NCBI GenBank assembly: GCA_039105265.1
Contig: JAPFFF010000002.1
Span: 2,108,001 to 2,172,000, forward strand
Reading direction: 5' to 3'
Length of the DNA stretch: 64,000 nucleotides
From: Tritrichomonas musculus
Taxonomy: Eukaryota; Parabasalia; Tritrichomonadida; Tritrichomonadidae
This document shows, piece by piece, positions 1 to 64,000 of the stretch; the first letter of the stretch is position 1; each line of letters opens with the position of its first letter. The position numbers were made by a program, and so were the translations under genes. Under the pieces are notes generated by a model. That model searched no databases. It saw only the letters and a program-made list of their open reading frames with translations, and was not told the origin of the DNA.

Positions 1-1406
1 GATGCTTGGGGAACAACAATGACATGCTTGTGACATTGATTAATGGGATATTCAATGTAGACTTGATTCCGTTAGCGGCTGCTGCAATTGGGAATGCATG
101 GTAATCTACCTTTTGAGATGGAATAACTAGGCCTTCACGTAAGATGGATTCAATGCTTGCACGAGTGGCTTCACAAACACCATATCCTTGCATGTTGGAC
201 TTACAGAGAGTGATGGTCATTCGGTTAACAGTGAGTGTTGCTGGTTGTGATGAGTAATGAGCACTCATCAATTTATTAGCTTCGGTTTTAGATATGAAAT
301 TAACGTAAACATTGCCTGCTGGATGCTTTGATGAAGGTATTCCACTTGGATGTTCTTTAAGATAATGCTTATTGCAAATTACCGAGCTCTGCAAACTCTT
401 CATCAGTATAACTGAACATAAATGTAAATGTTTCAAGAATGTCATTAACAGGAATATTTGTTGAAGCAGGTATGTAATGGTCTATCAATTCATACTTCAA
501 TTGATATTTAGTTGGTGTTGGTTCGGGAGATGGTGGATTTGGATTATCACCAGGTCCTGGGATGATAGCCTCATTACCGATTTGAGTGAATTGATGTTTG
601 AGATGTCCATGTGCTTTGATTTGTTTGAGTTTATCGAGTTTCTCTGGGGATACGGTATCATTATCTTCCAAGAATGCCTTAGCTTCAGCAACTGTGTATG
701 GGTCAATGGCAGCCCAAACAAGACCAGCTGGACTGACTTGGAATCTAATGGATAAATCACCAATGATTCCGTTAGGGAATAAGTCAAATGCCTGTAATGC
801 AAGCAAGTCATCAAATGGTACATTCAAGTCGAATTCAGTTGTGGTCTTACCACCATCCTTGAAGCTATTGAGATTAACGTATGAACCAGCATGAGTTTGA
901 CTGTAATTGCTGATGTTCTCCCATAAGCTGTGAACGAATCGGCGGCGCATCTTCTCAGTCTCTGGTTTCATAACCGAGTATAGGAAGCCCTCGCGAATGC
1001 ATTCATTTTGCTGATATCCGACATTGACATTGTTATGGAGAATCTCTAGCCTGTCGAATAATTGGTTCGAGGACTTAAATCCAACGAACAGTTTATAGAA
1101 GTTATTTGGATCATTGATCTCTTGCAATTTGGCCAAATCGGTGTTCAATTGCAAATCGAGTTTGATGTGGAATGTGAGAAAGCCTTTGTCGATATCGCTA
1201 ATGAAGTGGTCGGGATGTGTTAATGAAATCTGTGAGTACTGGCCTTGATGAAATGGGGCTGTCTGGTCATGGCAATCGACAGTTCTAAATGAGAAGCTTC
1301 TGGTACCATCATTCACATTGATGATATTTCTCATCTTCTGGAATGTGTCATTGATATTCCCAACCTCGTATTTCAAATTGTGAGCTCTTTCGTTCCTGTA
1401 TCTCAT
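1..1406 (-). pseudogene. MCP: Major capsid protein (double jelly-roll type), frameshifted, 3' end outside window
   Basis: The N-terminal 345 codons (369-1406) are open from an ATG at 1406, which I prefer to the upstream GTG. A stop then follows, but homologous-looking coding continues in another frame from about 385 down to position 1, so a single-base frameshift lies near 370-385. The product matches the capsid gene of element C residue for residue over long stretches (start MRYRNERAHN, motifs HQGQYSQISLTHPDHF and SPAGLVWAAIDP). It shares the pattern of a first jelly roll ending in a CAGLVY/PAGLVW strand with the capsid gene of B. A Pro/Ser-rich linker near residue 300 may separate the two jelly rolls. 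It is divergent to the next gene with only 47 bp between starts. Assignment as MCP is inferred from position, length and B-copy similarity; the frameshift is seen directly. Confidence 0.75.
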
Positions 1407-1453
1407 TTTGTATCTTGGAAAAAAGCTTGAAATCACATTTTTGTATATACCAA

Positions 1454-1705
1454 ATGGGTATTGGCATCTTCAAGAAGATTAAGAACGCTTTCAAGAATGT
1501 CGGCAGTAAGCTCAAGAATGCAGCTCAAACTGTCATCCGCAACATCCCAAGGGCAGTTGATATTGGAAAGGGTATCATCAATAAAATCAAGCCAATCGCC
1601 GACTTCATACCAGGTGTTGGACCAGTTGTAGACACCATCAGCACTGGACTCAATTACGTAAGCAAAGCTAATGATATAGGTAAATCCATACTGGACAAGG
1701 TTTAA
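1454..1705 (+). CDS. Small basic virion-type protein (MGIGIFKK family)
   Basis: 83-residue basic protein starting MGIGIFKKIKNAFKNVG, followed by a Lys-rich amphipathic region and a hydrophobic centre (ADFIPGVGPVVDTI). A near-twin lies at 9032 in element C, and a looser counterpart (MCGFFKKFFK, with Gly/Ala-rich amphipathic stretches) at 32980 in B. All three lie next to capsid or ATPase genes. The composition recalls the adenoviral pVI/pX type of small internal capsid proteins, which bind membranes or DNA, but this is analogy only. The ATG at 1454 is chosen because it aligns with the C copy. The start is preceded by a T-rich tract and CAAATG. Confidence 0.7.
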   Translation: MGIGIFKKIKNAFKNVGSKLKNAAQTVIRNIPRAVDIGKGIINKIKPIADFIPGVGPVVDTISTGLNYVSKANDIGKSILDKV

Positions 1706-1791
1706 TCATCATCGAATATCCACATACATATGAATATATTTTTGTCCGTTTTGAAATGAATTGCTATATTAGGGTTATAAATGATAACAAG

Positions 1792-2189
1792 ATGGAGCAA
1801 CGCACGTTCAACTCAGTAGAGGAGTTCGACCTGTTCTACCAGAAGTACAAGAATATGTCAATGAGAAGACGACCAATTACCTCAATAAAACCTACAAAAT
1901 AATCAACCCCGAATGCGAGTACAGGATTACCAAACGCACTGGCAAGGATGGCTCCAATAATGTGTTTCTCAAGAAGATCACCAAGCAAGCCGATAATGAC
2001 AACCTGGTGGAGATCCAATTTGCAAGCATTCGAGCTGACATCAACGCATTGCAGTCATCAGTAGATGAATACACCAAGCGGATTACCACTCTGGAGAACA
2101 CCATTGGCGTGATCACCACAAAAATAAATCAGCTCACCAATACCGTGAATGAGTGTACTGATGCAGTGAACAGTCTCCTGAGGCATTAG
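1792..2189 (+). pseudogene. Conserved small coiled-coil protein, frameshifted
   Basis: The reading frame opens with MEQRTFNSVEEFDLFYQKYK, then shifts by one base near 1850-1860 and continues as TTNYLNKTYKII to a stop at 2187-2189. The homologue in element C (9313-9759) has the same two halves, which shows they are one gene. The C-terminal half is an alternating hydrophobic/polar helix (IRADINALQSSVDEYTKRI) typical of a coiled coil. Function is unknown. Its place in the small-gene cluster after the capsid suggests a virion or assembly role. Its stop overlaps the stop of the convergent gene at 2186. Confidence 0.65.
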
Positions 2190-2413
2190 ATTTTGGAATT
2201 ATTTGGGATTACATGGTGATTGAGTGAGTGGTGTACTGTTGATGATGTCGACTTAATGATTGGATCATGCACAACACACCCCTTATCCTCATATTTTGGG
2301 ACTGTGGGTTTGGTACAACTCATAGTTCGCCTATTTCGCATGTGACGTTCCAGGTGATTGAAATACGTAAGCCCATTTGAATCTCTTAATACACGGCGTT
2401 CCTCATATGACAT
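2186..2413 (-). CDS. Conserved small protein (MSYEERR / MSFQQRR family)
   Basis: 75 residues. Homologous to the 77-residue gene at 9761-9994 in element C: both start MS-(Y/F)-xx-RR, have an Arg-rich N-terminal half and end with LNHxVxPxNSKI. The conserved C-terminus suggests a binding peptide. It is divergent from the next gene with 34 bp between starts. I do not recognise a family; presence in two elements and the intact frame support it being real. Confidence 0.65.
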   Translation of the reverse strand: MSYEERRVLRDSNGLTYFNHLERHMRNRRTMSCTKPTVPKYEDKGCVVHDPIIKSTSSTVHHSLNHHVIPNNSKI

Positions 2414-2447
2414 TTAATCTTGAAAAAACACTTTTTTTCATATCTAA

Positions 2448-2680
2448 ATGACTGAATTGGGTGAATACAAGAAGGAGATTCCAGAGCTTAAGCGCATCAA
2501 GCATGATCTCAAGGAGAAGTGCTATATGTATAAGGGACACCTCAATAACATCAAAGGGGTATGCTGGGTAGCAATGGACTAGCCGTTCGTGAATCACTGA
2601 TTGAGGATATCAATAGTCTGAAGGAGAAGGTCGCCAAACTCGAGAATGAGCTCGCTGAATTATCAAGCGATAACCACTAA
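2448..2680 (+). pseudogene. Conserved small coiled-coil protein (MTEL family), frameshifted
   Basis: Begins MTELGEYKKEIPELKRIK and would be about 76 residues, but a one-base loss in a G run near 2555-2560 sends the frame to an early TAG. The shifted frame continues as MLGSNGLAVRESLIEDI to TAA at 2680. The intact homologue at 10011-10241 in element C covers both halves. The protein is a charged, helical, probably coiled-coil polypeptide of unknown function. The start is preceded by a run of seven T and TCTAAATG. Confidence 0.7.
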
Positions 2681-2768
2681 ATATGGGGTCAACCGGAATC
2701 TCCTTTGGAGCTTAGAGCTTGCGCATAAATCCCGTAGACCTATTGGAACCACTATTTTTGCCCATTAA

Positions 2769-3983
2769 ATGACTGATAACAGGAAATCGTTCAAGATATT
2801 CGACAATGAGTACAATTCGCTGCTCAAGTACCCATTCAAATCCAAGATATCGAAATTGGACCCATCGCAGTTCATCATCAACCCAGTATCTCATCATGAG
2901 CCATTCGTGAAGGACTTCAAATTGAAATCATGCGGTCCCTATTCAAAACCGGATTTCTCATTGGAACCCGGATGCTGGGAAGTCGATTTGATGTTTGTGA
3001 AGTACACCACAAGGTCTGATGATGAAATCCAATCCGTGGTAGTCCATGAAACCATTTACCTCATCATGGTGAATGTCAACACGCGGTATCTAATTGTGGA
3101 ACCACTTAAGAACTGACTAGCTAATACCATCAAGACTGCATACACCAAAATCATTCTTGAGAAATATGATGACTTCAAATTCAATACCATCAAATGCGAT
3201 GGTGAGAATAACCTACTCAAAGTGCTTGATATACTTGGCCGCTACAATCCATCCAGAAATAAATATAGAGGTACCAAAAATGTGTTGATTGACCGTAATG
3301 CAGTGATTGTCGATAAATCCAAACACAACAACGCTCACAAAATCGTTGATGCAACCATCAGGACACTCCGTAATGCATTTGGTTTAGATAATCGTAGGAT
3401 TGGATACCCATACCTGATGCAACAGATGGTACACTTCTATAACAACACACCACATCGGTCTCTACGAATGCCCAATCCCAATTATCCAGGTGATGGAATC
3501 CAATATGACCAGTATCTAGCAAGGGAACCCAAGTGGATATACTACACACCCAATCAAATGCAACACAACCCAGATTTGGAGTGGAGATACGTCAGGGATT
3601 GCCAACGGCGGCTACGTCGAGTCAAAAATAATATGCAAATGGATGGTCTGCTGAGCTATAGCAAGGGGAATATCATATTGGTCCATTACGATACATCCAA
3701 AACTGAGAAGAAGCATGAGAAGCAGAGGCGCATATTCAATGAGATTGCCGAATTCATAAGATACCATAATGGGAACGTCGAATGTAAACTGCTGAAGCCA
3801 TATCATAGATTCCAGTTGAATGATGATAATCAATATGTACCGTATACCAAAACCAAAACTGGTCGAATGCCTAAGACTGATGATGAGCGAGCTACCGTAA
3901 CTGTCCCCATTATGTATACCCGATTCGTGGCACCCAATTATGCATCACTAGGTAAAGACTATAAGCAGTACTTTGCTATCTAA
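2769..3983 (+). pseudogene. Retroviral-type (DDE) integrase of element A, one in-frame stop
   Basis: 405 codons in one frame interrupted only by TGA at 3114-3116 (codon 116). Core features: first Asp at about residue 73 in WEVDLMFV, strand IMVNVNTRYLIVEPL, second Asp at about 144 in IKCDGEN, then an insertion of about 15 residues and the helix HKIVDATIRTLRNAFG, followed by NNTPHRSL. The last motif aligns with NNSPHRSL of the B integrase. The position expected to hold the catalytic Glu is Asp (about 194) here. Mavericks use this enzyme to insert element ends. The C-terminal 130 residues are basic and lack the clear chromo-like barrel seen in the B copy. The stop makes this copy inactive unless read through. 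Confidence 0.8.
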
Positions 3984-3986
3984 TAA

Positions 3987-4319
3987 ATGCCAAAGCGCTA
4001 TTTTCATACGCAAACCACCGAATTTAAGCTACCTGAGGACTTCATATATAGTCGCAATAAGAAGTACATCGCAGTGCAGTATGTGGGAGCTATCCTGAAT
4101 AAGACCATCATCGGTGATTTGATGGTACACTCGGATATTGTTGAATTTGACCCATACTGTGACCACTTCATAATGCTAGCCAACAGACGGCAAACCAAGT
4201 ATCGCAAATATGAGATGCTCAATAGGACCAAGCGGGATTTCAAAATATGGTTCACAGACCTGTATGGTAATGAGATAAAACCCGATGCATTCGTGCTATC
4301 GTGCTTGCTAATCTATTGA
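3987..4319 (+). CDS. Unknown 110-residue protein of element A
   Basis: Starts three bases after the integrase stop (TAATAAATGCC), so it may be co-transcribed with it. 110 residues, rich in Tyr, Ile and Arg/Lys, beta-strand-like pattern (KYIAVQYVGAIL, KIWFTDLYGNEI). The phrase near the end resembles the last strand of jelly-roll minor capsid proteins, where a variable-loop motif such as LVD-x-xx-P is common, but I see too little to call it one. No homologue found by eye in C or B. Confidence 0.5.
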   Translation: MPKRYFHTQTTEFKLPEDFIYSRNKKYIAVQYVGAILNKTIIGDLMVHSDIVEFDPYCDHFIMLANRRQTKYRKYEMLNRTKRDFKIWFTDLYGNEIKPDAFVLSCLLIY

Positions 4320-4343
4320 CTTCGGCAGTTTATTTTTGGGTAA

Positions 4344-4859
4344 ATGAATGGAAAAATATACCTATATCCAGGTCAATATAAAAGCATTGAAAATAAATAT
4401 ATAAATGGGATATATGCTAGCCATACAAATGACAATAAGTATATATTCGTTAAAAATATAGGTCTACCCAAAATCGTAAGCGCTTTGCGTGGAGGTTCAC
4501 TTGAACCAAAATTACAAGGCTTCCTATTCTTCCTAAGGAGTTATGAGAGAGAACCCAGTATTATTTGGGATGAAGCTGAAACATCAAATGGTATGCGGTT
4601 TGTATATTTTCTTCGAGAAAACAATAATTTTATGCAGCTGCCAAATAATGTATTTATTGCTGCTCCATATGATGAATTCGACAGTATAGTCCGTAAAAAT
4701 GTTATCGTACGTCCAGGTGTTTATGATAATGAGAGATTTAATATACCAATACTCTATCATAAGGAATATATTCCTGATATTGTGATCAAACATCTGCCTC
4801 CAACTCCAGACCCTAAACGCCAAAATGACAAATACAATAAATACTACGCACCTCAGTAG
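4344..4859 (+). pseudogene. Proline-rich protein of element A, 5' part (split by element C)
   Basis: Open from ATG at 4344 (TTTTTGGGTAAATG). It encodes MNGKIYLYPGQYKSIENKY and a roughly 160-residue beta-rich region, then reaches the insertion point of element C and stops at a TAG made by the element terminus. Discounting C and one copy of the 6-bp duplication, the frame runs on into 13451-14340, giving 464 codons. Function unknown; the N-terminal region may be a folded domain with the Pro-rich and Ser-rich tail attached. Confidence 0.75.
4849..4854. repeat. Target-site duplication of element C, left copy
   Basis: CACCTC directly before the AGTAGT terminus; CACCAC directly follows the other terminus at 13451-13456. 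One mismatch in six bases; 5-6 bp duplications are normal for Mavericks. The mismatch implies a later substitution. Confidence 0.75.
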
Positions 4860-5044
4860 TGTATAGAGAGCATTTAGAGGGGTCAGAAGCACGAACTACT
4901 GATTTGATATAATATCATTGAGATTCATATGTTGTACTCAATGTTGTTTATCACATTCTCTTCAATACGCACAAACTACTTATTCATTTCTTTCAGTCCA
5001 TCATGTCATCATTCAAGTGATAATTATTTTTTATTTTTTTCCAC
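4855..5044 (+). repeat. Element C left TIR
   Basis: 190 bp, inverted at 13261-13450. Begins AGTAGTGTATAG. The inner edge is where the left sequence reads CCACTCC and the right one CCACACT. Confidence 0.92.
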
Positions 5045-5073
5045 TCCATGAATTAATTTTTTATTTCACCCAA

Positions 5074-8049
5074 ATGCGATACGATTACCAATCACTTAAA
5101 AATATTAACAGCGAAGATATTATTACATTAATCAATTCTATCAATATACTTTTCAATGAAAACCTACAGATTACAACAACTGCTAAAACAGAAGCTTGGA
5201 ATAGAAGGAAAAACGTAGAGGTATTATGTGATTGGCTTAATAATCGTAATGCACACAGATTTATTAAAAATGATTTACCAAATGCAGAAGAAATAGATGG
5301 TTTTATTATGCATGAACAACAAATTAAGAGAGAATTCGAGATAAAAGAAGCTGTTGATAAAGCTAAAAATGCTCTCAATGAAGCAATTCAATTAATAAAA
5401 CAACAACAACATCCTGTATTACAAAACACTAAAAAACTGATAATCCCAGATGCTCCATTAATTAAAAACCATCAAAAGCATTACATTCCAGAGAATGAAG
5501 AAATATATGAATACCTCAATAAATGCGCACACAATTTCACATCAAAACATAGTGATTTCCTTATGACTAACGAGCCACATGATTTCGATAGAGCTGTAAA
5601 TGAGTGGAATCACTATAATAAATATCCATCTAAAAATACTATACAACGCAAAGACAGTGGCAAGCCGATAACAACATATTATTTTAATCAAGTTGCATCA
5701 TTAGATAATATCTTTGAGTGTCTTCACAATGTATACAAGAAAGAGCTGAAACCATTTAAGATTCATTTTCAACTTTCAGGAGTCTTCGAAACATACACTT
5801 ATGATTTTGAATCATTAGAAGAGAAATACGAATATAAAGCTAAAGACATTATTTGGAAAAACTATCAAGCAATGATACCTATCATTATCAGTAATCTTGA
5901 AGACCTTGATATTGTTAAACTCTATATTGAATCTGTTTTACACTCTTATGAAACAGAATCATCAAGCACAAAACTTATATTAGTTGGTTCAATAGCTTTT
6001 ACAGTTTCAAGAATGAGAAAGATAACTGGTCGCATAAAGGATTTACCAATAGAATTCATCAAAAATGATTTCATAATATGTGATAATGAAGATGATAAAC
6101 TATGTTTTTTCAGATTCTTAGCTGTATGTTTAAATGAAGAACTAGCAAATACCAAAAAATATAAAACTAAAGAACGAACTAAAATTGCTAAGAAACTACT
6201 TCTTAAAGAACACAATATAATATACAACACAAAGATTCCAAATGAAGGTAAGAAAATACTTAATGAATTCGAAGGTGTTTCAATGGAGCAGATGAAAGAT
6301 TTAGCACAAAAGAATCACATCAATGTTAACATATATGAGTTTTTCAAGACAGATTCTGAGCAATATTATGATTTATCAGAGCAGTGGTTTTTCGATAAAA
6401 CATTTAAAAAACGCTCTGCATTGCTTTTCACTCAAAATCAAATCATCCATATAATGTACATTAAGAATCCTGAAAAGCTTACCCAAATACATATCTGCCC
6501 TAAATGTAATTCATATATTCATTATGGTCCAAAGAATTTTAACAGGTTTGATTCTCATGTTAAACACTGTGATGGTGTATTTAAAAAGAACTTCATACCA
6601 GTTAAAGAAGCTTTACCTTATTGTCCTCACATATTGAATAACCCTGTTTATGAATACTGTTTAGCATACAATCTTCAATGGAAACCTGAAATATACTATA
6701 TAACATATGATTTCGAAACAATGGATCAATCAATAAATAAATCAATCTCTAATTCAACAACAATAAATTCAAGGTTAATTCCGTTGTCAGTTTCATCTTG
6801 TGTGAAATCATCAAACGGCTTGACAACAAAGAATTTCTCATTACGAGACTCTCAAGAGTTCATACCACAATGGATAAAATGGTTGTTCGAGCAATCAATG
6901 AAAGTCTATGCAGATAAGATATCATATTATAACTCATTCTTACCAGATACCTCTGTTAACAAAAATATGAATGTAATTACTGTATTAGGGTTTAACTCAT
7001 CACGTTTTGACAGCAATCTATTTAAACAATATTTTAATCATTCTTTCTGGAAAGTCGAACAAAATTCAATAATTGGCACCCTATCTTCATTAAAACAATT
7101 CATTCTCACATCAGATAATCATCCAACTAAATTGCGATTCATAGATGCCCAATCATTTGTTGCAGGAGGTACATTAAAACAATTTAGTAAAGATTTTAGC
7201 AACAATAATAGCTCAAAATGTGTGTTTCCTTACGAAGCAATCAACGACAAGAACTACAATGAAGTATTATCAAAATCAGAACCATTTTCATATGATGATT
7301 TTTATAGCTATCTCAATCAAAAGAATCCTCTCACTAAAGAAGAATATGATGCTTATCTTGAAGATTCAAAACGTTTTGCAACACGATGGGACTACTTATT
7401 AGCATACAATGATAATGATGTTGAAATGATGATTAAACATATTGATAATTTAATAGCACTCAATGCTCAATACAATGTTGATTTACTTTCAAATCTCTCA
7501 TTATCAAAGAATGCTTCATGCATCAAATATGCTTTGGCTTATAAAGATTTCAATCCGAGAAACAACATTGGGATTACAAATAAATATAATACATTCAAAC
7601 CAAGTAAGAAATGGTGGCAATATAAATGTGATAGTTATTATAACCAAGATGAGAAATACAATAGATTAAACCCTAAAAAACCACAACGAGATTTGACAAA
7701 ATGTGTATCAGAAAATGATTTTGAAGCTTTTATGAAAATGTATGACGATCCAAATAAATGGAGATGTCATTTATGTCATGAACATTTTACTTATCAAAAT
7801 AAGCCTACATTAGATAGAATTGACAATAATAAAGGTCACCAAATTGATAACTGCTTATTAGCATGTGCTGAATGTAATAAACTTCGTAAACGTGATGACC
7901 CTAAAATAACAGCTCTAAGAATCCAATTAAAAAAATATTGTAAATTACATCATTTACCAACACTCATCAACGATGAACGTGAATATTATTCAATAAGAAA
8001 TGCTATCACAGGAGGACTCTCTAATGTAATGCATCGAGTAAACATTAAA
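5074..8049 (+). pseudogene. polB: Protein-primed DNA polymerase B of element C, 3'-truncated
   Basis: Start chosen at ATG 5074, after the TIR, with no T-rich leader; an upstream frame inside the TIR is open only from TTG. The order is: helical N-terminal region (1-130); a region with Asp-Lys-Leu-Cys (about 344) and His-Ile-Met (about 459) that looks like an OTU-type Cys/His pair; a Cys-rich ICPKC...HCDG zinc region (about 475-510); exonuclease motifs DFET (about 548), NSSRFD and YNDNDVEMM; then an HNH-like insert with CHLCHEH, LDRIDN, GHQ, CAECN; and GGLSNVMHRVNIK. There the homology to the A polymerase ends. The palm motifs (SLYPS, NGSYG, DTDS) are absent. The open frame runs to 8169 only by reading the antisense of the capsid Pro-rich linker. 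Exonuclease may be intact; polymerase cannot be. Confidence 0.85.
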
Positions 8050-8981
8050 GATGGTTCAGGAGTTGGGTCTGGTGTTGGAGATGGTGATGGGCCTGGTGTT
8101 GGAGATGGGTCTGGGGTTGGAGTTCCAGGGCCAGGAATAATAGCTTCATTACCAATTTGGGTAAATTGATGTTTCAAATGACCACGGGCCTTTATTTCTT
8201 TCAATCTTTCTAATTCTGCAGATGAGATACTATCATTATCTTCTAGATAAGCTTTTGTTTCAGCAACAGTATAAGGGTCTATAGCAGCCCAAACTAATCC
8301 TGCAGGTGATACTTGGAATCTTATAGAGAGATCACATATGATACCATTAGGGAATAAATCGAATGCTTGTAATGCAAGTAAATCATCAAATGGCACGTTC
8401 AAATCAAATTCAACTTGGGATTTACCATTAGATTTGAATGAATTGAGGTTAACATAAGCACCAGCAACAGTTTGTGAATAATTTGAAACGTTTTCCCAAA
8501 GTGAATGTACAAAACGCCTACGTTTCTTCTCAGTCTCTGGTTTAACAGTGGAATACAAAAACCCTTCACGAATACATTCATTTTGCTGGTATCCAACGTT
8601 TACATTATTATGGAGTATCTCCAAACGGTCAAACAATTGATTGGAAGATTTGAGACCGACAAATAATTTGTAAAAGTTATTTGGGTCATCAATTTGTTGT
8701 AATTTTGCTAAATCAGTATTCAATTGTAAATCCAATTTGACGTGAAATGTTAAAAAACCTTTATCAACATCACTAATGAAGTGGTCAGGATGTGTTAAAC
8801 TGATTTGGGAATATTGTCCTTGATGAAATGGTGCAGGTTGGTCATGGCAGTCAACAGTTCTGAATGAAAATGAGCGTGTACCATCATTAGTGTTAATCAT
8901 TTCACGCATCTTATTAAAAGTGTCAAGTACATTCCCAGTTTCGATTTTGTAATTATGTGCTCTTTCGTTGCGATACAACAT
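8050..8981 (-). pseudogene. MCP: Major capsid protein of element C, 3'-truncated
   Basis: Starts MLYRNERAHNYKIETGN at 8981 and follows the A capsid closely (HQGQYSQISLTHPDHF, NECIREGFLY, SPAGLVWAAIDPYT) to the (Pro-Thr/Ser)n linker. At about 8050 the frame enters the antisense of the truncated PolB gene and stops at 7986. Only the first jelly roll and linker remain. It cannot form a full double-jelly-roll subunit. Divergent from the gene at 9032 with 50 bp between starts, as in element A. Confidence 0.8.
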
Positions 8982-9031
8982 TTATGATACAAAAAAGTAC
9001 TTATTACAGGACTTTTTTCATTATAAAAACA

Positions 9032-9286: not shown

Positions 9287-9312
9287 AAACAAAAAAATTT
9301 TTTTGAAAATAA

Positions 9313-9759: not shown

Positions 9760-9760
9760 C

Positions 9761-9994: not shown

Positions 9995-10010
9995 TTTTGT
10001 ATTGAAATAA

Positions 10011-10241: not shown

Positions 10242-10268
10242 GATGTATAGAGATTTTTTTGCACTGAA

Positions 10269-11059: not shown

Positions 11060-11062
11060 GAA

Positions 11063-53898: not shown

Positions 53899-56224
53899 TC
53901 ATATTGTGATGACCGTAATGCGCATATGAACCACACTTTGGACAGATATGGATATTGGTCAGCTTCTCAGCATCCCTGATGTACATTATGTGGATGATTC
54001 GATTTTGGGTGTACAGCAATGCGGATTTCCTAAATGAGTTATTGCTATTGTATTTCCATTGGTCCTGAAGGTTATAAACTTTGAGATCCTCCAAGTACTC
54101 ATAGATGTCCACATTCAAGTGATGCTTCTCGGCAGATGCCTTCATGGATTCAATTGATGTACCCGGATAGTTGTTCAGGAGGTCGATTGCATCCTGAGAT
54201 GGCTTAGTTGAATACACTATATTGTGATCCTCACATAGGAGCTTCCTAGCTGCCTGTGTACGGTGCTTAGTTTTGCAACCAGATTCAGGGTCAACTAGAT
54301 GGTCATCTAGACATGCAGCCAGAAATCGGTACCAACATAGATTATCATCGGCGTTGTCCGTGATGATGAATTTGCTATTTTTGATCTCAGGAGGTAAATC
54401 CTTGATTGGACCACTAACCTTGACCATTCGAGAAACCGTGAATGAGACTGATCCTATGAGAATCAACTTGGTTCCAGATGTTGAGGTCTCATATGAGTGC
54501 AGTACTGATTCAATATAGTACTTCACGATATCAAGCGATTGCTCATCACGAACCACAATTGGGATAGCCGATTTATAGTTGTTCCAATTGATTTCCCTAG
54601 CTGCATATTCACATGAATACCCAAACACATTCTCAGCATAGGGGGTCTCAAATACACCCGAGAGTTAGAAATAGATTTTGAATGGTTTTACCTCACGCTT
54701 ATAAACCTGTTGCAGGCCATCATATATGGTGTTCAATGAGGATATCGAGTTGAAGTAGTATATGTATATTGGCTCATAGGTATCAATATCCTCACGCTCC
54801 TTGTAATTACTATCATCATATTTGGCATATGATCGCCAAGCCTCAACAGCCCTATCATAGCTATCAGGTACATTCACAATGAGGAAATCGGTGTGTTTCG
54901 ATTTGAACTCATGACCGAACTCACTGAGGTACTCGAGTATTTCATTATTTTCAGGGTCCTTGGGGAGATCATCAATATTAGCGTTACCATCGATAATATG
55001 ATTCAGTTTTGTAACCTTAGTCCTGTCTCGGAGTATATCTAGTATTTCAGCTCTATCGATATACTCGGGATAATACTTGTTGAAATAGGAATATGCTTTG
55101 TGTTCATCATCTAACCGCTGTTGGAACCTATTCTGGGTATTCAAATGCTGGAGTACATCAATGGGGTCCTCAATCTTGTAATCACCTCTATTGAATTTAC
55201 TGAAGTAATCATTATCTCGTTCAGTCTGAAGTCTCTCGAAGAATTTATCAAAATGGGATTCCTCGAGCTTATCAGTGGGATCAAAACCGGTGCGATATAC
55301 AAATAAATTATCATTTAGGAACTTTATGAAACTGTTCAGCATTTCATTATATGATGTGTTGCGGGTTGGGATGTTACCATCGAACTTCTTATTGGCCTTA
55401 TTGATATAATGATCAACAGTATTCATGGGTAGATTACTTTTAGCAAAATTCTTAGTAGTAATCTTGCGATGCTTTTCACGCTCCTGTTTCTGCTTCTGTT
55501 TCAATCGATCGCGTTTCAATTTCTCAGCCAGTTTCTGTTCCTGCTTCTGGAGACGCTCCTGCTTAGCATGTTCCCGTTCCAATTGCTTAGCACGTTCACG
55601 TTCAAGTCTGACTTCCTCAAGTGCATGCAGATTCTGTTCAGTTGCATCCCTCAGCAGCTTATCCTCTTGTTCATCATGCAGTCTCTCGAAGAATTTATCA
55701 AAATCTGAGACCTTGAGAAGAGTATTAGTATCAAAACGTGTGCGATATACAAATAAATTATCATTTAGGAACTTTATGAGACTGCTCTGCTGTGCGGCCT
55801 GTGGTATGTCGGTTGGGGTTTTGCCACCGAACTCAGTGTTGACGATCTTGATATAATCTTTGACATCACTCGCGGTTAAAACAGCTTTATCAAAATGTGT
55901 CTTATTAATCTTGCTATTCAGTAAACGTTCAGCATGTTCCAATCCCAATACCTTGAGACGCCTCTGCTCAGCACGTGTAAGCCTCAGTCGCCTGAGGAAT
56001 GTATCAAAATCTGATTCCTCGAGCTTATTATCGAGATCAAAACCAGTGTGAGCTACAAATGAGTTCTCATTCAGGAACTTTATGAGACTGCTCAGCTGTC
56101 CAACATATTGGCTGTCAGTTGAGATACCCCCACCGAACTCCTCATTGATGATATCGATATAGCTTTTGACGGTTTCTGTGGGTAGAATGTTTTTATCAAA
56201 ATTCCAATTAGTAATCTTACTCAT
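53899..56224 (-). pseudogene. polB: DNA polymerase B of element A, 5' part (split by element B, frameshifted)
   Basis: 519 codons from ATG 56224 (MSKITNWNFDKN) to TAA at 54665, then a one-base shift and open frame 54660-53904 leading to ICPKCGSYAHYGHHN at the element B boundary. The N-terminal region has three copies of a module of about 80 residues (NFDKNILPTETVKSYI ... SLIKFLNENSFV ... FDTFLRRL), joined by Lys/Arg/Glu/Gln coiled coils. Element C has a divergent N-terminus without this expansion. Then the region homologous to C (KPFKIYF, INWNNYK) and the OTU-like pair DDNLCWYRFLA and HIMYI. The shift is at a place where C reads through as FQLSGVFET. Confidence 0.82.
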
Positions 56225-56671
56225 TTGCCCATTGGTAAAAATACAAAAATAATCATCGCAACGCTGTTGATAACATACTATTTTTGAATTTTACTCAATT
56301 AAATAGCAAATCGGAATCATATATGTGTTAGCGCTAACTGGTATAGTTGTTGGGTCATGAAGCATGTCTCCGGGCTTCGGCTACAGGCATGAGTTCGATT
56401 CACTGTCATACCGATTTTTCGTATTATTTCCGGTCCATATTTGTGGTAGAGCCCTAGCGAACTAAACACCTTGGGTAAGCTATTACTTGTGGATTATGGG
56501 GTAATACGGGCATTTGCCGGCATTTGCAACCCAAACCAGTCTCATGGTGGATGCAGGTATTTTCCTTGAGGGATTGATGTGCAATCCCGGGTACGTATGT
56601 TGGTTCCTCTAGAGAATGCATTACGCATCCATCATGGGGTCGGTTTTTGCAAAAATATTTTTGGAATACGG
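56225..56671. other. Spacer with Pol III box-like sequence, no gene
   Basis: 447 bp. Around 56331-56420 it has TAGCGCTAACTGG (A-box-like) and AGTTCGATTC (B-box-like), spaced about 55 bp apart, but a cloverleaf does not fold convincingly. Otherwise relatively GC-rich and unremarkable. Confidence 0.4.
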
Positions 56672-57202
56672 TTAGAAATCAGTTGTATCAATCTCATCTG
56701 GGTCTGGAGTTGTTTCCCTTGGAGGGCCGTTTATAGGCATATGGGTGTTGATTAGTTTTTGGGTCATATACATGGAGATACTCAACTTTAGGTTATCACG
56801 TATGAGTCTACGCAATAGGGATACGCGTTTATGAGGTTCTGCTTGGGAGACCGCATCGATTACCGCCTGTGATGTGACATATTGGATCAATCGGTCGTGA
56901 TCCCCAATATCCAAAAACTTGCTTCGATTGAATATATGGGTGCGATTTAAACGAGGTCGAGGATGTTCAATAGATGGTGTCTCAGGAGGTGAGTCATTTG
57001 CATCCTGAGTAGTATCCTGAGTGGTGTCGATATGTACTTCATCCTTTGGGGTATCAGCAGATGGTTTGTGTTTATGGTTCATACGCTTAATCAAATGCTT
57101 GACATCTCGGCGTAAATCGGTGATGCCATCTACGATTTTTGAGAGTATCTCAGCATCAGTAGCCATATCAGTAGTCATATCTGTATCCATATCAATATCC
57201 AT
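56672..57202 (-). CDS. Conserved protein with NKSKFL / YMTxKLI domain (A copy)
   Basis: 176 residues. Asp/Thr-rich start, disordered Thr/Pro/Asp middle, then a helical domain FNRSKFLDIGDHDRLIQYV ... LLRRLIRDNLKLSISMYMTQKLI. The D gene at 59257 has the same domain (LNKSKFL ... LIREQLNINLSLYMTGKLI). Function unknown; basic helical domain of about 80 residues, maybe DNA-binding. First of a three-gene row after the PolB start. Confidence 0.65.
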   Translation of the reverse strand: MDIDMDTDMTTDMATDAEILSKIVDGITDLRRDVKHLIKRMNHKHKPSADTPKDEVHIDTTQDTTQDANDSPPETPSIEHPRPRLNRTHIFNRSKFLDIGDHDRLIQYVTSQAVIDAVSQAEPHKRVSLLRRLIRDNLKLSISMYMTQKLINTHMPINGPPRETTPDPDEIDTTDF

Positions 57203-57242
57203 TTATGCAAAAATAAAATATTATTTTTGAGCTTTGACTCAA

Positions 57243-58016
57243 TTATGATCGCATTGTGGTTGTAAAATATTTGTCCACAGCTGTGTGAAAATCATTAAGA
57301 CATGATCTTTTGATGGTAATCCTAGTACCACCTACAGTGACATCATCCCCTTTGAACATAGCTTTGGCCATTCGTTTGATATCTTCATTCGGGGTCATTG
57401 CAATGGGTAGGTCATCAATAAATATCCAGCGCTTCTTCTGATCTTGATATATCCTACTGACCTGCCTCCATGAATGCTTGTTGCGACGAACGAGATGGAG
57501 TTCCACAGAATCATTATCTTTGGGAAGATCCTCAAGCCATATCATATATCGGTAGCTATTTTTGTGATCCTTGGGGACAGCCCTTGTAGTGAGGTCATTG
57601 ATTTTGTTATCCATCTGCTCGCGTTGCTTCTCAAAATGAGCATCCAAAAGCTGAGCAATATATATGGCATACTTTCGACTTGCCCAGCATGCAACATCAT
57701 TGACCAGTAGTCGGTGAATGTATATACCTTGCAAATGGGAATTACCAATATTTACTCGATTTTGAACCAAATCCTCGGGACAGCAATTTTGCTGTGCCGA
57801 TAATTCATCGAGTATTTCATTGGTTTCAGCGAGTTGCCTCCATCGATAAGTTTGCTTCTTGGAATTGCATGCATTGAGAATCGATTGCATCTGGTACATA
57901 TCATCCTTAATGGAATGTATCAAACGGAGCTTCTCATTATACTGGATGAATTCATACTCATCATCGATTGGTTCGATAACAGCTGCCATTGGTGTATTTG
58001 ACCCAGTTGATTCCAT
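57243..58016 (-). CDS. KilA-N domain protein
   Basis: 257 residues. KilA-N signature: GNSHLQGIYIHRLLVNDVACWASRKYAIYIAQLLDAHF (about 95-130). Downstream a beta-rich region (YRYMIWLEDLP, KKRWIFIDDLP) and a basic C-terminus. KilA-N proteins are DNA-binding regulators common in phages, large DNA viruses and their transposon relatives. The codons at 57776-57799 coincide with the recurrent 24-nt hairpin, inserted just before the KilA-N core (AQQNCCPED). A regulatory role near the element end is likely by family. Confidence 0.75.
   Translation of the reverse strand: MESTGSNTPMAAVIEPIDDEYEFIQYNEKLRLIHSIKDDMYQMQSILNACNSKKQTYRWRQLAETNEILDELSAQQNCCPEDLVQNRVNIGNSHLQGIYIHRLLVNDVACWASRKYAIYIAQLLDAHFEKQREQMDNKINDLTTRAVPKDHKNSYRYMIWLEDLPKDNDSVELHLVRRNKHSWRQVSRIYQDQKKRWIFIDDLPIAMTPNEDIKRMAKAMFKGDDVTVGGTRITIKRSCLNDFHTAVDKYFTTTMRS
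57776..57799. repeat. 24-nt hairpin within the KilA-N gene
   Basis: CGGGACAGCAATTTTGCTGTGCCG, near-identical to 25940-25963 (3-4 differences). In frame, adds 8 codons. Confidence 0.6.
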
Positions 58017-58126
58017 TTGGAATTCGATAAAAAATTGAGTTGCATTGCGAACCAGCTAGTTATTACCTCATATGAAGTTGAGTCCAAAAATATAAAATAC
58101 GAATGCGAATGCGAATGCATGAATAC

Positions 58127-58429
58127 TCAAGCAAATTCATATGAGAATCCGAGTATTTTCAATAGCATCTTGATCCTGCTCAAATCGAGTTCCTTACGAT
58201 CATAGCTATCACCATCTATGATTTTGGCTCGAAGGGATTCCAAATCAGTTTCAAAATTTGATATTGTATCGATGAGATCGTCCATGAAATCATCGTCGTT
58301 GTGGTAGTCGAATGCGAGGGATTTCCATTGGGGGTATTTCTTGAGGATGACTCGTTCGAGGTAATCTAGTTTGACACCATTGGCTTCGACATTGGAGAGT
58401 TGTGGCATGGCAACAGTTGTTGAATTCAT
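58127..58429 (-). CDS. Unknown 100-residue protein at the end of element A
   Basis: Start at ATG 58429 (MNSTTVAMPQLSNVEANGVK). Helical, acidic (DYHNDDDFMDDLID, RAKIIDGDSYDRKELDL). Longer open frame reaches 58513 inside the 13-bp repeats and is unlikely. No family recognised. Confidence 0.5.
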   Translation of the reverse strand: MNSTTVAMPQLSNVEANGVKLDYLERVILKKYPQWKSLAFDYHNDDDFMDDLIDTISNFETDLESLRAKIIDGDSYDRKELDLSRIKMLLKILGFSYEFA

Positions 58430-58850
58430 TTCTAACTGGATAAAAAATTGAATTGATTCGAGAATCGCGTTATTTTTAGAATTTGTATGGTCTGTTCCAT
58501 TAGCTTGCTCCATTAGCTTGTTCCATTAGCTTGCTCCATTAGCTTGCTCCATAGGTGGTCCCATAAGTGGGCTATAAGTGGGTCATATATGGTCTATTTT
58601 TGGAATTTGTATGGGCCCAAATATGGGCGTTTTATGGGCGTTTTGGGGTTGTATGCAGTATGGGTCAAAAATAGGGAATTCTATGTGACCCCCGAATATG
58701 GGTCCAAATATGGGTTCAAATGCGGGTTCAAAATATGGTGCTATGGGTGTATGCTATTTTTGATATTTAGAAGGGGGCCAAAAGTGGGTCATTTTGGGCG
58801 TTTTAAGTGGGATTTTATCTGGTCCCGATTCGGAACACTCATCACTACTT
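58430..58850. repeat. Right terminal region (probable TIR) of element A
   Basis: 420 bp without a gene. 58501-58552 is a 13-bp unit TAGCTTGCTCCAT repeated four times. The rest is rich in imperfect repeats of TATGGGTCAAA / AAGTGGGTCA / GGGCGTTTT and ends AACACTCATCACTACT. The ACTACT end matches the termini of B and C. The matching left TIR would be outside the window. Confidence 0.65.
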
Positions 58851-59035
58851 AGGAGCTTTAGGTGCTTTATCTTTCTTCAAATAATACCCTCCATCTGTAA
58901 TACTAACAGGTGGTTCGTGTAATGGTTTTGTTTTATGTTGATTACTCTTTGGTGAGTAGTATATGTATGTTCGTATTGGTGGTCGAATAATTTTTCCAGG
59001 TCTCCCAATACCAGGAACCAAGCTCAAAACCTCAT
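58851..59035 (-). pseudogene. EPPVSITDG-family gene fragment of D, truncated by element A
   Basis: Homologous to the middle of 36988-37416 in B (RPPIRTYIYY, HEPPVSITDGGYYL). The C-terminal part is replaced by the end of element A, whose last bases supply the stop. No ATG is in frame: the nearest (59035) is one frame off, so the start has probably decayed too. Confidence 0.6.
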
Positions 59036-59256
59036 TTTAAAAATTAACGAAAAACTTATCCACAGGGTTTAAATTTTAATTAGCCTCCATAATCTGTTGT
59101 AGAACAAGGCCTGTCATAAAGCGCTAAACACTCATTTTAAAATTTATTTCAAAGTTAATTTGGGATTTAAAATTTAAATAAGGGCTCCAGAGTGATTCTG
59201 AGAACAAGTTATAAAATTTTAAATTAAGAATTTGTTTTTTTTATCTTATTTAAAAA

Positions 59257-59688
59257 ATGCAACAACGCATCGACCATATCATTTCTGAATTACTTGCTTT
59301 GAAAACCGAATTCGAACAATTAAATAATATATCAAATGAAACACAAATTGAACAACCAACTGAATCTGAGGTCAACGAAGTTGCCCGAGGCTATGCCGAG
59401 GCACAAAGTGTCGAACCATCAACTGAATCAACTGAACAATCAAATGAATTAAATCCTATACGAAGAAGAACAAATCGTTCATTTCCATTAAACAAATCCA
59501 AATTCCTTAATGATGAACAGAGAGACCAAGTTCTTCAATTTGCTTCTGACCATAAAGAAACAATTATGAATCAACCAAGGTCTAATCGAATTCAATTCCT
59601 TCAGAATCTAATTCGTGAACAATTAAATATCAATTTATCGTTATACATGACGGGAAAGCTGATTCAAATAATCTCATCCAACAATTAA
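59257..59688 (+). CDS. Conserved protein with NKSKFL / YMTxKLI domain (D copy)
   Basis: 143 residues, MQQRIDHIISELLALKTEFEQL coiled-coil start, Glu/Thr/Ser-rich middle, then the helical domain shared with 56672-57202: NKSKFLNDEQRDQVLQFA and LYMTGKLIQI. Intact. Function unknown. Confidence 0.65.
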   Translation: MQQRIDHIISELLALKTEFEQLNNISNETQIEQPTESEVNEVARGYAEAQSVEPSTESTEQSNELNPIRRRTNRSFPLNKSKFLNDEQRDQVLQFASDHKETIMNQPRSNRIQFLQNLIREQLNINLSLYMTGKLIQIISSNN

Positions 59689-59714
59689 GCTAAAAAAAAA
59701 TTTTTTTATACTAT

Positions 59715-62567
59715 TTATGCCTTAAAGCATGCAAGTGTTTTATTATCTATTATTGCAGTTATGATTCCGACAGTCATGCGTTTTATTTTTGATGTTATCG
59801 CTGTCTCTCCTGAAAGAATCTTCAATTTATTATCTTCATTATCAATAAATACTTCATCCCCAATACCATAACAAGATGAATCATCAACTTTTACAAGATA
59901 ATCGCCATGGGAAGCGAAGGTAATACAATTATTTTTTTCATCAATTCTAACACAAATACCAACATATTCTTTCCATGAACCAGTAGTTTTGACACTACAA
60001 ATACAATCTGTAGTATCATTCACAGTTGAAAGTATCCAAACTTTGTTTGGCTGAGAAACATTGTTTCGTACCCACGTATCACCATCATGTTTATAAACCT
60101 TACCAGTCATATATACTGGAGCTCCAATAACGAAATCATTAATAGAGTTCATTGATGACTCGATTGGGGAGTAGTGAGTAATTGTTGTGTTTGATTGCGT
60201 TCCGTAAATAGCAGCCTTATATTTTGCTAAATAACCTCGGGACATGATGCATCTTGAATATATTTGTTTAGCATCTAATAATTCCTGAGTAGTTGTCCAA
60301 GAATATCCACCTATTGGGAAATTATATGTCAGGGGTCTTCCTGATGATATATCAACAGTGTCTTCATAATATAGTGGGAATTTGAAATTGTCGAAATACA
60401 CAGTTCTTTGATGTAATACAAGAACAATGTTGTGGGGATTTCCAGTTGTATCATAGAATAATATTCTTATTTCCAAACATAGCGCATAATCACCTACTAT
60501 ATATTCCAGTTTAATCACATTACCTTCAAGTTTTAGATAATGAATTGATATTTCACCGCCCTCTGTAATCGGTCCGCAATCAATAGCACATTTTTTTATT
60601 AGTTGTTCTTCTGTTATGACGTTTGACTTCAGAGCAAAGTTATCATTCACATATTTCACTGAAGTAATCATATCATCGTTCACAGGTCGGCTGCGGATTA
60701 ATGTGATAGATGCATCATATATATTAGTCAGTGTATCGTCCTCAGCTCTCAATGAAACGATATGGGTATTATAATTAATATTTATTAATTCATTGCTTGT
60801 TGATTTGTAAATCATATTCAAACTTTTATATAAACTGTATTCGTATTCAACTTCTTCATATGATGCATCATCAGCATTTCGTTTGAATTTGACGATAATA
60901 TTTTTGGTTGTGAATACTCTTCTTATATCATTATCAGGAACTACACAACCACTTTCATTCTGTGTACATTGAATTGTGATTTGTTCTGGATTTTCATCAA
61001 CAACATTTGCAGTTTTAATAAATGGTGATTCGATTTGTGCTTTAATGACGTTGATTAACCATTGAGTATTGCCACTTGAATTACACAACATAAATTCGCC
61101 ACGGTCATACCATACAATAGATAATCCATTATCTAACATCATTCTATACCCTCTCATATATTTTTCATAAGGCTTGAATATCAAATCAAAATGTTGAATA
61201 TTGTTAATGTAATCCTTGTTAGAACCCCAATTAACATCAAATATCACATGTATATCGGTTTCTGGTAAGTATGGTTTTACAAATATATAATCACGAACGG
61301 GATTCGGATATTCAATATTCAATTCAGTACCATATAATGTAGTACTCAATGCAGATTCATTAACCAAATCAGATGGAATTGTTGGTATATCAGTTTTCAA
61401 TGCATACTTATCTAATTCATAAGCCAATTCATCTTCATCAACAAACTTCTCATCAGCTTGTGCACTAGAATAATATGGTGTCAAATCGACAGGTTCTGGG
61501 ATATCTTCTTTTAATGCATAATTGTTTGACACATATCTTGCCGAATAAATGTTTTTGTTTGTTGGTTCAACAGTTTTGGTTATTGAACATGATAATATTT
61601 CTGGTGTTTCACCAGTTCCTGGATTAATTAATTCATGTGATTGATATAGTATCCAAAGACTAGAATCACTTCCTTCCATACACAGTATCTGAGAGGGTAG
61701 ATTATCATCATTGTCATTGTACGAATAGTCTGCGTGAACATAATGGGCCGTATAGTAACTGTCTGATGAGACAATATCTAACCCATATTGCTCAATCAGT
61801 ATATGATATGGGTCGTAATCCAAATCAATAATTGTATTATTGGCGATTGTGAATTGAATTGTTGTTTGACCCTCAATGATTTCTGGGATTTCGCTTTTCA
61901 CTTGCTCAATAATCTTTGGGAGGTCTTCTTTTGAAACATATTCTCTGGCACAAGAATCCAAAGCCGCTTGAAGACCTTCATTAGCCGCCATACTTGTTAA
62001 ACACATTGATGCTTGAGCTGATAATGGGTTAACATCATCAGCCATCAATTTCTGAAACATTTCGTCTGATACTTGGTCTTTTATGTTCAATTGCAACTCA
62101 CTATTTTTGAGAACTGTGGGTATCTCAGGAATGTCTTCTTTTTTTACATAAGACTGTAAGTCCTGCGCTTTAGCGTACTCACTTAAGTTCGTAAGTTTCG
62201 CATATGGTTCCAAAGCAGTTGTCAAAGCAGATTCATTAACCAAATCTGTAGGTATTTCAGGTATGTCAGTTGATAATGCAAAGTTGTTAACAACGTAATC
62301 ACGTAATGTATTAACAGCGTTTTCAATTTCTTCACTACTAGCATACTTTAATAATTCTTTATTGAATTCCTCTGTTTTCAAATAATCGAATAAATCAGTT
62401 GTTTTTGCGTATGGTTTTAATAATTCTTTCAATTCCTCAGTATTCAAGCTTGACCCTAAATTATTTCCGTTATTGCATTGGCAAGCATATTTCTTGATAT
62501 ATTCTATTATCAATTCATCAATTGTATTAACTTTTTTTATATTACCCGCTTGTTCTATCGTGAACAT
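59715..62567 (-). CDS. Tail-fibre-like protein of element D
   Basis: 950 residues from ATG 62567 (MFTIEQAGNIKK), which aligns with the A start; an upstream ATG at 62591 would overlap the divergent gene. N-terminal IDELIIEYIKKYACQC, repeats YAKTTDLFDYLKTEEF and IPEIPTDLVNESALTTAL, the shared IPEIIEGQTTIQF module, YALKEDIPEPVDL, a long beta-rich region (LYGTELNIEYPNPVRDY) and the terminal domain ITHYSPIESSMN ... LACFKA. One extra segment of about 100 residues (CGPITEGGEISIHYLKLEG) is absent from the A copy. Intact. Confidence 0.75.
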   Translation of the reverse strand: MFTIEQAGNIKKVNTIDELIIEYIKKYACQCNNGNNLGSSLNTEELKELLKPYAKTTDLFDYLKTEEFNKELLKYASSEEIENAVNTLRDYVVNNFALSTDIPEIPTDLVNESALTTALEPYAKLTNLSEYAKAQDLQSYVKKEDIPEIPTVLKNSELQLNIKDQVSDEMFQKLMADDVNPLSAQASMCLTSMAANEGLQAALDSCAREYVSKEDLPKIIEQVKSEIPEIIEGQTTIQFTIANNTIIDLDYDPYHILIEQYGLDIVSSDSYYTAHYVHADYSYNDNDDNLPSQILCMEGSDSSLWILYQSHELINPGTGETPEILSCSITKTVEPTNKNIYSARYVSNNYALKEDIPEPVDLTPYYSSAQADEKFVDEDELAYELDKYALKTDIPTIPSDLVNESALSTTLYGTELNIEYPNPVRDYIFVKPYLPETDIHVIFDVNWGSNKDYINNIQHFDLIFKPYEKYMRGYRMMLDNGLSIVWYDRGEFMLCNSSGNTQWLINVIKAQIESPFIKTANVVDENPEQITIQCTQNESGCVVPDNDIRRVFTTKNIIVKFKRNADDASYEEVEYEYSLYKSLNMIYKSTSNELININYNTHIVSLRAEDDTLTNIYDASITLIRSRPVNDDMITSVKYVNDNFALKSNVITEEQLIKKCAIDCGPITEGGEISIHYLKLEGNVIKLEYIVGDYALCLEIRILFYDTTGNPHNIVLVLHQRTVYFDNFKFPLYYEDTVDISSGRPLTYNFPIGGYSWTTTQELLDAKQIYSRCIMSRGYLAKYKAAIYGTQSNTTITHYSPIESSMNSINDFVIGAPVYMTGKVYKHDGDTWVRNNVSQPNKVWILSTVNDTTDCICSVKTTGSWKEYVGICVRIDEKNNCITFASHGDYLVKVDDSSCYGIGDEVFIDNEDNKLKILSGETAITSKIKRMTVGIITAIIDNKTLACFKA

Positions 62568-62581
62568 TTTGGGAATAATAA

Positions 62582-64000
62582 ATGATAACAAACATAAACG
62601 AAGATTTCATACTAAACGAAGTAAAAAAAAGGGACTATCAAGATATGCTCGTATTCATGTTCCAAAATAGTAAGTTAACACAAATAACAACAATTATTGG
62701 TAATATTATTGAGTATCTTAAGAATCCTCGTAACTATGTCAAAGATGTAAAAACAAATTTAAAAGATATGCTTGATAAATATAACGCAAAGCCTAAAGGA
62801 ACTTCAAGACAAAAAAATGAATTAGCTAAAATACTTGATTCAAAAGCGAATTACTTTATTGATTTAACCAACTATCTGAAAAATAAAGCTGCGGGCTCTC
62901 GCAGCCTCCGACAAGCGGAGGAAGAAAAACCTTTTTCCATTCCACAAGTTGAAGAGGAGGAGGAGCCCGATTTAGCAGACCATTATTTCAGAAATCGAAT
63001 TAATAAAGATATTGAATCACTTAATGATTTAGTTATACTTGATAGTAATCATATTAATGCTTTACAATTATTTTATCGTATTGCTGATGATTCAGAGAAG
63101 TATTCAGTATTCAATAAAAAAGATACCACACAGATTCAATCACTTGTCAAATCATTGACAAATAATATAGACTCACATAAAAACAATGAGGCATCAGATA
63201 ATATAAATAACCTAATGCAATTTGAGAATATTAGAAGAAAAACCAATATTGAAACAATGAGGAAGATAGCAGAATCTAATCAAGAAGGTCAACAATTATC
63301 AGATGCTTACAATAAATCTTCTACAATTGATGCTAATCAACTTAAGAAATTTGGGTTATTAAACGACGAGTTTACTACTGAAAACCTTTATGATTATTAT
63401 AATCGAGCTATAAATCCCAAAGATGATTCTGACATCAGAGTAAAAAAACTTGTATTACAATTACATGATGCAATACGCGAAACAAACATATTTGAAGAAA
63501 CAACTGAGCCTAAAAACAAAAAGAAGCTCAAACAATTAATAAAGTATATTAAAGAAAATGGTGACCGAGAAATATTATTTAACATGAATAGTGAATCTGA
63601 GCATGAAAGTTCTGACGATAATAATGTTGATAATGAATATTTTTCCATTCCTAAATCAATGTCAAAGCCTGTATTTAAATCACCATCTAAAAAACCTGTA
63701 CTTAGTTCTGAAAACTACGAAGATTTATTTAATGTTGATATTGAATCACCAAAAGGTGTATCTCCAATCGATACTGATGAATTCAAAAGCAATTATATGC
63801 AGTCTGTCCCAACTGGTAAACGTGCTGGTAAAACATTTGAAGCTTCACAAAAACGTTTAAATGACTTATACATTTTCGAAAATAAACAAAGTATTGATGT
63901 TAGTAAATTCCGAGGGGAATTATTTGATATTCTTATTAATGGTAATTATCGTATTAAATTCTCTCCAAAATGTGCTACAAGAGATGGCGCAGAAGCCTAT
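62582..64000 (+). CDS. Long repeat protein of element D (5' part, runs off window)
   Basis: Open from ATG 62582 (ATAATAAATG) to the window end, over 470 codons, 14 bp from the divergent fibre start. The start MITNINEDFILNEVKKRDYQ parallels the A gene at 23511. Helical repeats follow, then acidic Ser/Asp linkers and, near the end, LFDILINGNYRIKFSPKCATRDGAEAY, matching NFLDIIINGNYRVKYIPNAATRDTAAAY of A. It therefore confirms that the two A pieces are one gene. Two GC-rich hairpins sit in the frame at 62888-62921. Confidence 0.75.
   Translation, partial: MITNINEDFILNEVKKRDYQDMLVFMFQNSKLTQITTIIGNIIEYLKNPRNYVKDVKTNLKDMLDKYNAKPKGTSRQKNELAKILDSKANYFIDLTNYLKNKAAGSRSLRQAEEEKPFSIPQVEEEEEPDLADHYFRNRINKDIESLNDLVILDSNHINALQLFYRIADDSEKYSVFNKKDTTQIQSLVKSLTNNIDSHKNNEASDNINNLMQFENIRRKTNIETMRKIAESNQEGQQLSDAYNKSSTIDANQLKKFGLLNDEFTTENLYDYYNRAINPKDDSDIRVKKLVLQLHDAIRETNIFEETTEPKNKKKLKQLIKYIKENGDREILFNMNSESEHESSDDNNVDNEYFSIPKSMSKPVFKSPSKKPVLSSENYEDLFNVDIESPKGVSPIDTDEFKSNYMQSVPTGKRAGKTFEASQKRLNDLYIFENKQSIDVSKFRGELFDILINGNYRIKFSPKCATRDGAEAY
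62888..62921. repeat. Tandem GC-rich hairpins inside the D long gene
   Basis: GCTGCG-GGCTCT-CGCAGC followed at once by CCTCCG-ACAAG-CGGAGG, sharing one base. Strikingly GC-rich in an AT-rich gene; in frame. Confidence 0.6.

Follow-up and report, generated by a model that had tools for sequence, protein, structure and literature searches.

Here, we report that a stretch of the Tritrichomonas musculus genome is a real nest of mobile elements, four layers deep, composed chiefly of Mavericks (Polintons), plus a hAT element, a fold-back element and a MITE. The stretch, hereafter the window, comprises the 64,000 nucleotides at C2:2108001-2172000; coordinates are relative to the window, and negative numbers lie to its left. 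The two deepest chains both reach depth four: Maverick E holds Maverick A, which holds the hAT, which holds the fold-back element; and E holds A, which holds Maverick B, which holds the MITE. A sequence-only reading of the window had proposed four or more layers of nesting together with their relative chronology, and this holds, though one of its links, the placement of A inside Maverick D, is wrong. Empty sites and other copies were sought in the 193.4 Mb, 746-contig assembly, and the layers are known from assembled sequence. The features of the locus are as follows.

About -7974, inverted relative to F: left end of E, from comparison with its relative F.
-7731..-7666, -5703..-5315 and -1159..-119, inverted relative to F: pieces of E left of A, from comparison with F.
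1..58849, reaching to about -120: Maverick A, left-truncated, carrying C, the hAT and B; right end CACTCATCACTACT, then TAGGAG.
4855..13450: Maverick C, 8.6 kb, in A; terminal repeats of 190 bases, 100% identical.
16480..21927, plus strand: hAT element in A; GATTACCA (8 bases, one copy) at 16472-16479 and 21928-21935.
20069..21700: fold-back element in the hAT; arms of 575 bases, 98% identical; TA on both sides.
29101..53898, plus strand: Maverick B, within the polymerase gene of A; TCATA at 29096-29100 and 53899-53903.
41133..42767: inverted-repeat unit in B, holding the MITE; arms of 64 bases, 86% identical.
41906..42270: mariner-like MITE in B; inverted ends; TA on both sides.
58850..58855, plus strand: TAGGAG, the target copy at the right end of A; runs uninterrupted in F.
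58850..58954, minus strand: piece of E separating A from D; matches F at -44269..-44373 in inverted orientation, with 99% identity.
58955..64000: Maverick D, left part; the element extends beyond the window to 82321, and its 271-base terminal repeats are 97% identical.
82315-83415, inverted relative to F: piece of E right of D, 90% identical to F; the right end of E is not reached.

Empty sites establish the order of these layers. They were found in one copy for A and D, in two of two copies for C, in seven of seven for B, in one clear case for the hAT, in five of five for the fold-back element and in two for the MITE, and they show that A and D lie in E, that B, C and the hAT lie in A, that the fold-back element lies in the hAT and that the MITE lies in B. 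Read from the nesting, E is older than A and D; A is older than C, the hAT and B; the hAT is older than the fold-back element; and B is older than the MITE. The highest identity to another copy is 97% for the A polymerase, 99% for the hAT, 99% for the polymerase part of C, 99% for the MITE and 100% for the fold-back element, values that appear to agree in direction with the nesting order and that provide no clock.

The outermost layer was recognized by comparison with F, an intact Maverick at -52763..-28486 whose 224-base terminal repeats are 98% identical and whose flanks share AGTGA. E is a second element of the F type, inverted relative to F, with its pieces in consistent order on either side of A and D; its identity to F is uneven, ranging by stretch from 72% to 100%. 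The 105 bases at 58850-58954 match the interior of F, which lies approximately 103 kb away, and the sequence of F is continuous through both TAGGAG and TTGGTG, the latter flanking D (58955-82321) at 58949-58954 and again after 82321. Because F is uninterrupted at both sites and pieces of E flank each, A and D both lie within E, and are sister insertions 105 bases apart. The arrangement inferred earlier, D interrupted by A, takes its appeal from the meeting of two Mavericks within 105 bases. However, those bases are of F type, D starts at 58955 with its own terminal repeat, D is bordered by TTGGTG at both ends and neither site is interrupted in F, such that a direct insertion of A into D is scarcely credible.

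The left end of A is lost. Two relatives of A retain both ends (C70 and C18), and by comparison base 1 of the window lies approximately 3.2 kb inside A. Leftward, A stops at about -120, where it meets E. At this junction, 381 bases on the E side match F at 100%, 422 bases on the A side match the C18 copy at 99%, and the two sides overlap by three bases, TAA. Absent at the junction are approximately 3.0 kb of A, including its terminus, and approximately 5.8 kb of E. The predicted terminus, AGTAGTGATGAGTG, was not found where A should begin. Allowing up to two mismatches, the motif has a single match in the 60 kb left of the window, inside F at -42562, where comparison with F leaves no A sequence, and we take it as chance. 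The expectation that host sequence would continue beyond A was borne out in part: host sequence is present up to about -120, and the contrary outcome of no host sequence on the far side was not what we found, but the host is E, not D, and the left TAGGAG copy of A is missing. Because that copy and the left end of A are missing, the placement of A in E rests on one end of A plus F.

The simplest account of the junction would be a single later deletion. Alternatively, it could have arisen by recombination between two F-type elements and copies of A, which we consider unlikely, although it carries appreciable weight. The last 381 bases of E match F perfectly whereas other stretches of E are less similar, as gene conversion or exchange would leave; on the other hand, E is ordered and oriented to the left and right of A as a single interrupted element would be, and the 3-base overlap suits plain end joining. 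Less probable by far is that some of the junctions are assembly artefacts of a repeat-rich genome. The genome paper does record that four chimeric contigs were split (PMC11978803), but the assembly was built from HiFi plus Nanopore reads (PMC11978803), and most of the boundaries here have target duplications and matching uninterrupted sites. Target duplications count against an artefact because a misjoin makes none.

It had been proposed that C, a hAT and B each interrupt A and that a fold-back element interrupts the hAT; the expected inverted ends and target duplications are present at C (6 bases, with one mismatch), the hAT (8 bases) and B (5 bases), the fold-back element has TA on both sides, and copies of the respective hosts that are free of the insert were found in every case. 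For C, the flanks read CACCTC at 4849-4854 and CACCAC at 13451-13456, the mismatch being in the right copy, and the site is uninterrupted in both of the two A relatives compared. Internally, the polymerase frame of C continues at 8052-8053 into the antisense of a capsid-like frame, and the polymerase and capsid-like blocks are oriented differently relative to each other than in A and D. This 8052/8053 join is seen in no other of the 40 best-scored matches (of 1337 candidates), and we therefore rejected the idea that C represents a short family that transposes as such; it looks like a one-off rearrangement.

The hAT is recognizable by a Dimer_Tnp_hAT domain in its last open frame (23.7 bits, cut-off 21.4). 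Its site lies within a short tandem array, and one A relative (L049) reads GGGATTACCACTTGG through, uninterrupted; another (L046) also lacks the hAT, but differs at the tandem array. Elsewhere in the assembly there are five near-full copies at 99% identity, plus one fragment that matches at 84%. The dimerization domain, short inverted ends and 8-base duplication are those of hAT transposons as a class; unlike a typical hAT, the frame in this copy is split and a fold-back element is carried inside. That fold-back element is absent from all five other hAT copies that have both flanks, in which the flanks overlap by two bases, and has six other full-length copies that are 98-100% identical.

B has terminal repeats of approximately 460 bases that are 95% identical. 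It is absent from all seven polymerase relatives, in five of which the flanks abut, with a differing stretch of approximately 48 bases in the other two. B encodes a family B DNA polymerase (DNA_pol_B_2, 116.7 bits, cut-off 25.8) and a packaging ATPase (Pox_A32, 24.8 bits, cut-off 22.8), and its candidate integrase matches rve at E 4.8e-5 with 24 bits, below the cut-off of 32.6. The candidate capsid frame at 35353-36933 matches no family above cut-off with sequence profiles. Two further features of B are an HNH endonuclease-like protein at 42828-43589 (HNH_3, 35.5 bits, cut-off 24.8) and, at 39013-40739, a frame of 409 codons between inverted copies of a repeat of approximately 80 bases, tandem on the right side.

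B had also been described as carrying an inverted-repeat unit that contains a MITE, and of this the insertion of the MITE stands, whereas insertion of the unit could not be demonstrated. The MITE has 35 other copies at 96-99% identity among the best 40 scored of 234 candidates, and is missing from two B copies (C62 and C53) in which the flanking sequence is present on both sides. With TA on both sides, inverted ends and a length of several hundred bases it resembles mariner-type MITEs such as Tvmar1 of T. vaginalis (PMC7845603); there is no transposase inside, and it is set beside Tvmar1 by description only. Apart from the MITE, the surrounding unit at 41133-42767 is complete in C62; C53 and C6 have parts of it, and C8 retains only about its first 53 bases. 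There is no clear target duplication at its flanks, which do not match, and no empty site among the B copies compared; we therefore do not count it as a demonstrated insertion, and it may either have entered B long ago or have belonged to B from the start. Similarly, a unit of approximately 318 bases, inverted at the outer ends of B, was considered as an independent MITE. Of 40 listed copies, 27 have the inner terminal repeat of B next to it by position, as do all four that were fetched of the other 13, giving 31 in total, and we therefore take the unit as part of the terminal repeat of B. Among the B ends, the small contigs C318 and C337 repeat the flanks of C11 and C31 (L055/L058 and L056/L057), as alternative haplotypes or assembly redundancy would give.

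Taken together, the history of the locus is very probably the following. An F-type Maverick, E, would have been struck twice, 105 bases apart, by A at TAGGAG and by D at TTGGTG. A would then have taken in C with a 6-base duplication that now has one mismatch, the hAT with 8 bases and B with 5 bases, the entry of B, a Maverick of the other lineage, splitting the polymerase gene of A. The fold-back element would have entered the hAT at TA and the MITE would have entered B, also at TA, and a later deletion would have removed the left end of A with the adjoining part of E. Integration of each Maverick was presumably the work of a retrovirus-like integrase belonging to its lineage, with a stagger of 5 bases for the B and F type and 6 bases for A, C and D, and nesting may have been favoured because the landing regions of the 6-base families coincide.

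We looked at target-duplication length in relatives of these Mavericks. The window's own A keeps one end, and the 6-base duplication and paired ends are seen in relatives: among six elements of the A family with terminal inverted repeats at both ends, the 6-base duplication, matched by eye, is exact in five and agrees at 5 of 6 bases in one. The listed copies of the B family include 12 other elements with both ends, 10 of which were read at their ends; a script found an exact 5-base duplication in nine, and in the tenth (C7) three terminal bases are missing, with TTAAT seen on both sides by eye. Elsewhere, the duplication is 5 bases at F (AGTGA), 6 at D and 6 with one mismatch at C. The polymerase pieces of A and B have no significant similarity (E 1.1), and the A polymerase has no Pfam polymerase match at E 0.1, the motif SLYPS being seen by eye and in the weak alignment to B. 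The integrase pieces are similar, with the A fragment 39% identical to the B integrase over 62 amino acids (E 3e-7) and without a Pfam match of its own. Within the open reading frame at 26226-29099, which is the A polymerase frame, positions 27600-27900 match phage HNH/endonuclease VII families (PHROGs E 1.9e-7). Near its end the candidate integrase of B resembles a Tudor-like domain below threshold (18.2 bits, cut-off 27.2), at most a hint that might bear on targeting.

A test of neighbourhood was made with the best matches of each family, at most 40 being scored of several hundred to more than 1000 polymerase candidates. A limit of 300 kb was kept after it had been displayed beside 100 kb. 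Controls were MITE and fold-back copies, the fold-back list being 16 places chosen by eye from matches of roughly at least 380 bases at 91% or more, with weaker ones omitted. Dropped from the final count were rows within C2:2048000-2212000, two C rows that matched the capsid side only and one end of each pair of B ends. For A to C, excluding the window's own copies, 15/39 lay within 300 kb versus 1/51 controls, and 6/39 versus 0/51 within 100 kb. Copies with a member of either of the other two 6-base families no more than 300 kb away numbered 20/39 for A, 23/37 for C and 15/39 for D, with corresponding control counts of 4, 5 and 2 of 51 (Fisher p 6e-6, 3e-7 and 5e-5). Against the same controls, F/E copies gave 11, 11 and 10 of 39 (p 0.02, 0.03 and 0.004) and B copies 6, 7 and 4 of 26 (p 0.08, 0.09 and 0.17). 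Therefore, sharing of regions is strongest among the 6-base families, partial for F/E and not significant for B. Since F/E copies also lie nominally closer than controls to A, C and D, a clean contrast in location between 5-base and 6-base families is weakened. These lists are top-scoring subsets, the copies are not independent and segmental copies were kept in, such that segmental duplication could contribute to the sharing. The controls are also unevenly spread, with five of 16 fold-back elements near MITEs and six of 35 MITEs near B.

The sharing of regions by A, C and D may help these families to nest. Against this stands the view that nesting is due to chance, with Mavericks filling much of the genome and no targeting, and to this we give even odds. 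It is favoured by the masking of 42.67% of the genome as repeats (PMC11978803) and by the contribution of Mavericks to related genomes, which is about a third (PMC10120064). A further count, in which 20 of 29 outer flanks of A termini match Maverick-rich DNA over at least 200 bases, has no random-flank control and includes two termini that share one flank (L042 and L043), and so is only suggestive and leaves room for chance. What speaks against chance is that copies of A, C and D lie closer to one another than the MITE and fold-back controls lie to these families. Tentatively, and with rather less than even confidence, we propose that T. musculus has two Maverick lineages whose integrases differ in stagger (5 and 6 bases) and in landing preference, such that A, C and D would accumulate in common territories, where Mavericks would be both landing ground and burial ground of Mavericks, and the 5-base families would land more widely.

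Nests of this kind are ordinary for trichomonads, since Maverick-rich genomes and nested blocks have already been published for them. In T. vaginalis approximately a third of the genome is Maverick, with estimates based on capsid genes of 27-54%, compared with 34% for T. foetus (PMC10120064), and the Maverick blocks are nested, fused and fragmentary (PMC7845603). The T. vaginalis elements share with those described here their large size, terminal inverted repeats, family B polymerase, and KilA-N and integrase genes (PMC7845603). What differs from those blocks, besides the species, is that single layers are proven here by uninterrupted copies, and that each of two lineages has its own duplication length. 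Polinton-like viruses of cryptophytes are likewise viral elements interrupted by mobile elements, with duplications of 5-6 bases, 6 being typical of this integrase (PMC12220804), but the elements nested there are retrotransposon-like (PMC12220804), whereas here at least four kinds of DNA elements are involved and Mavericks lie in Mavericks. The T. musculus genome was reported at 193.49 Mb in 756 contigs from PacBio HiFi plus Nanopore reads, with 42.67% repeat-masked (PMC11978803); the strings "transpos" and "maverick" have no occurrences in the main text of that paper (PMC11978803), and no paper pairing "Tritrichomonas musculus" with "Maverick" was found in the literature searched. In the literature consulted on target duplications of Mavericks in T. 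vaginalis and related elements, a split of stagger by Maverick lineage is not described, and it may already be in print. The value of the locus lies in the proof of single layers by empty copies and in the two staggers: it gives a checkable order of insertion at one place in T. musculus and links target-duplication length to Maverick lineage inside one genome, and differences in stagger and territory would bear on whether integrase targeting or chance builds nests.

Further features surround the locus. To the right, the segment at 83702-96919 (L014, L053 and L054) has inverted 84-base ends, 94% identical and 13.2 kb apart, that begin TGTCACCGTG; the flanks of these ends are without a match to each other. 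On the left, F itself seems to be inserted in a Maverick of A/D type, with A-type sequence reaching -52764 on its left and A-type genes beyond -28486 on its right (surroundings -60000..-28000; L052, L051, L009 and L010). Finally, a further Maverick of B/F type lies left of E at -23038..-15388 (L010 and L011), and thus E may itself be nested.
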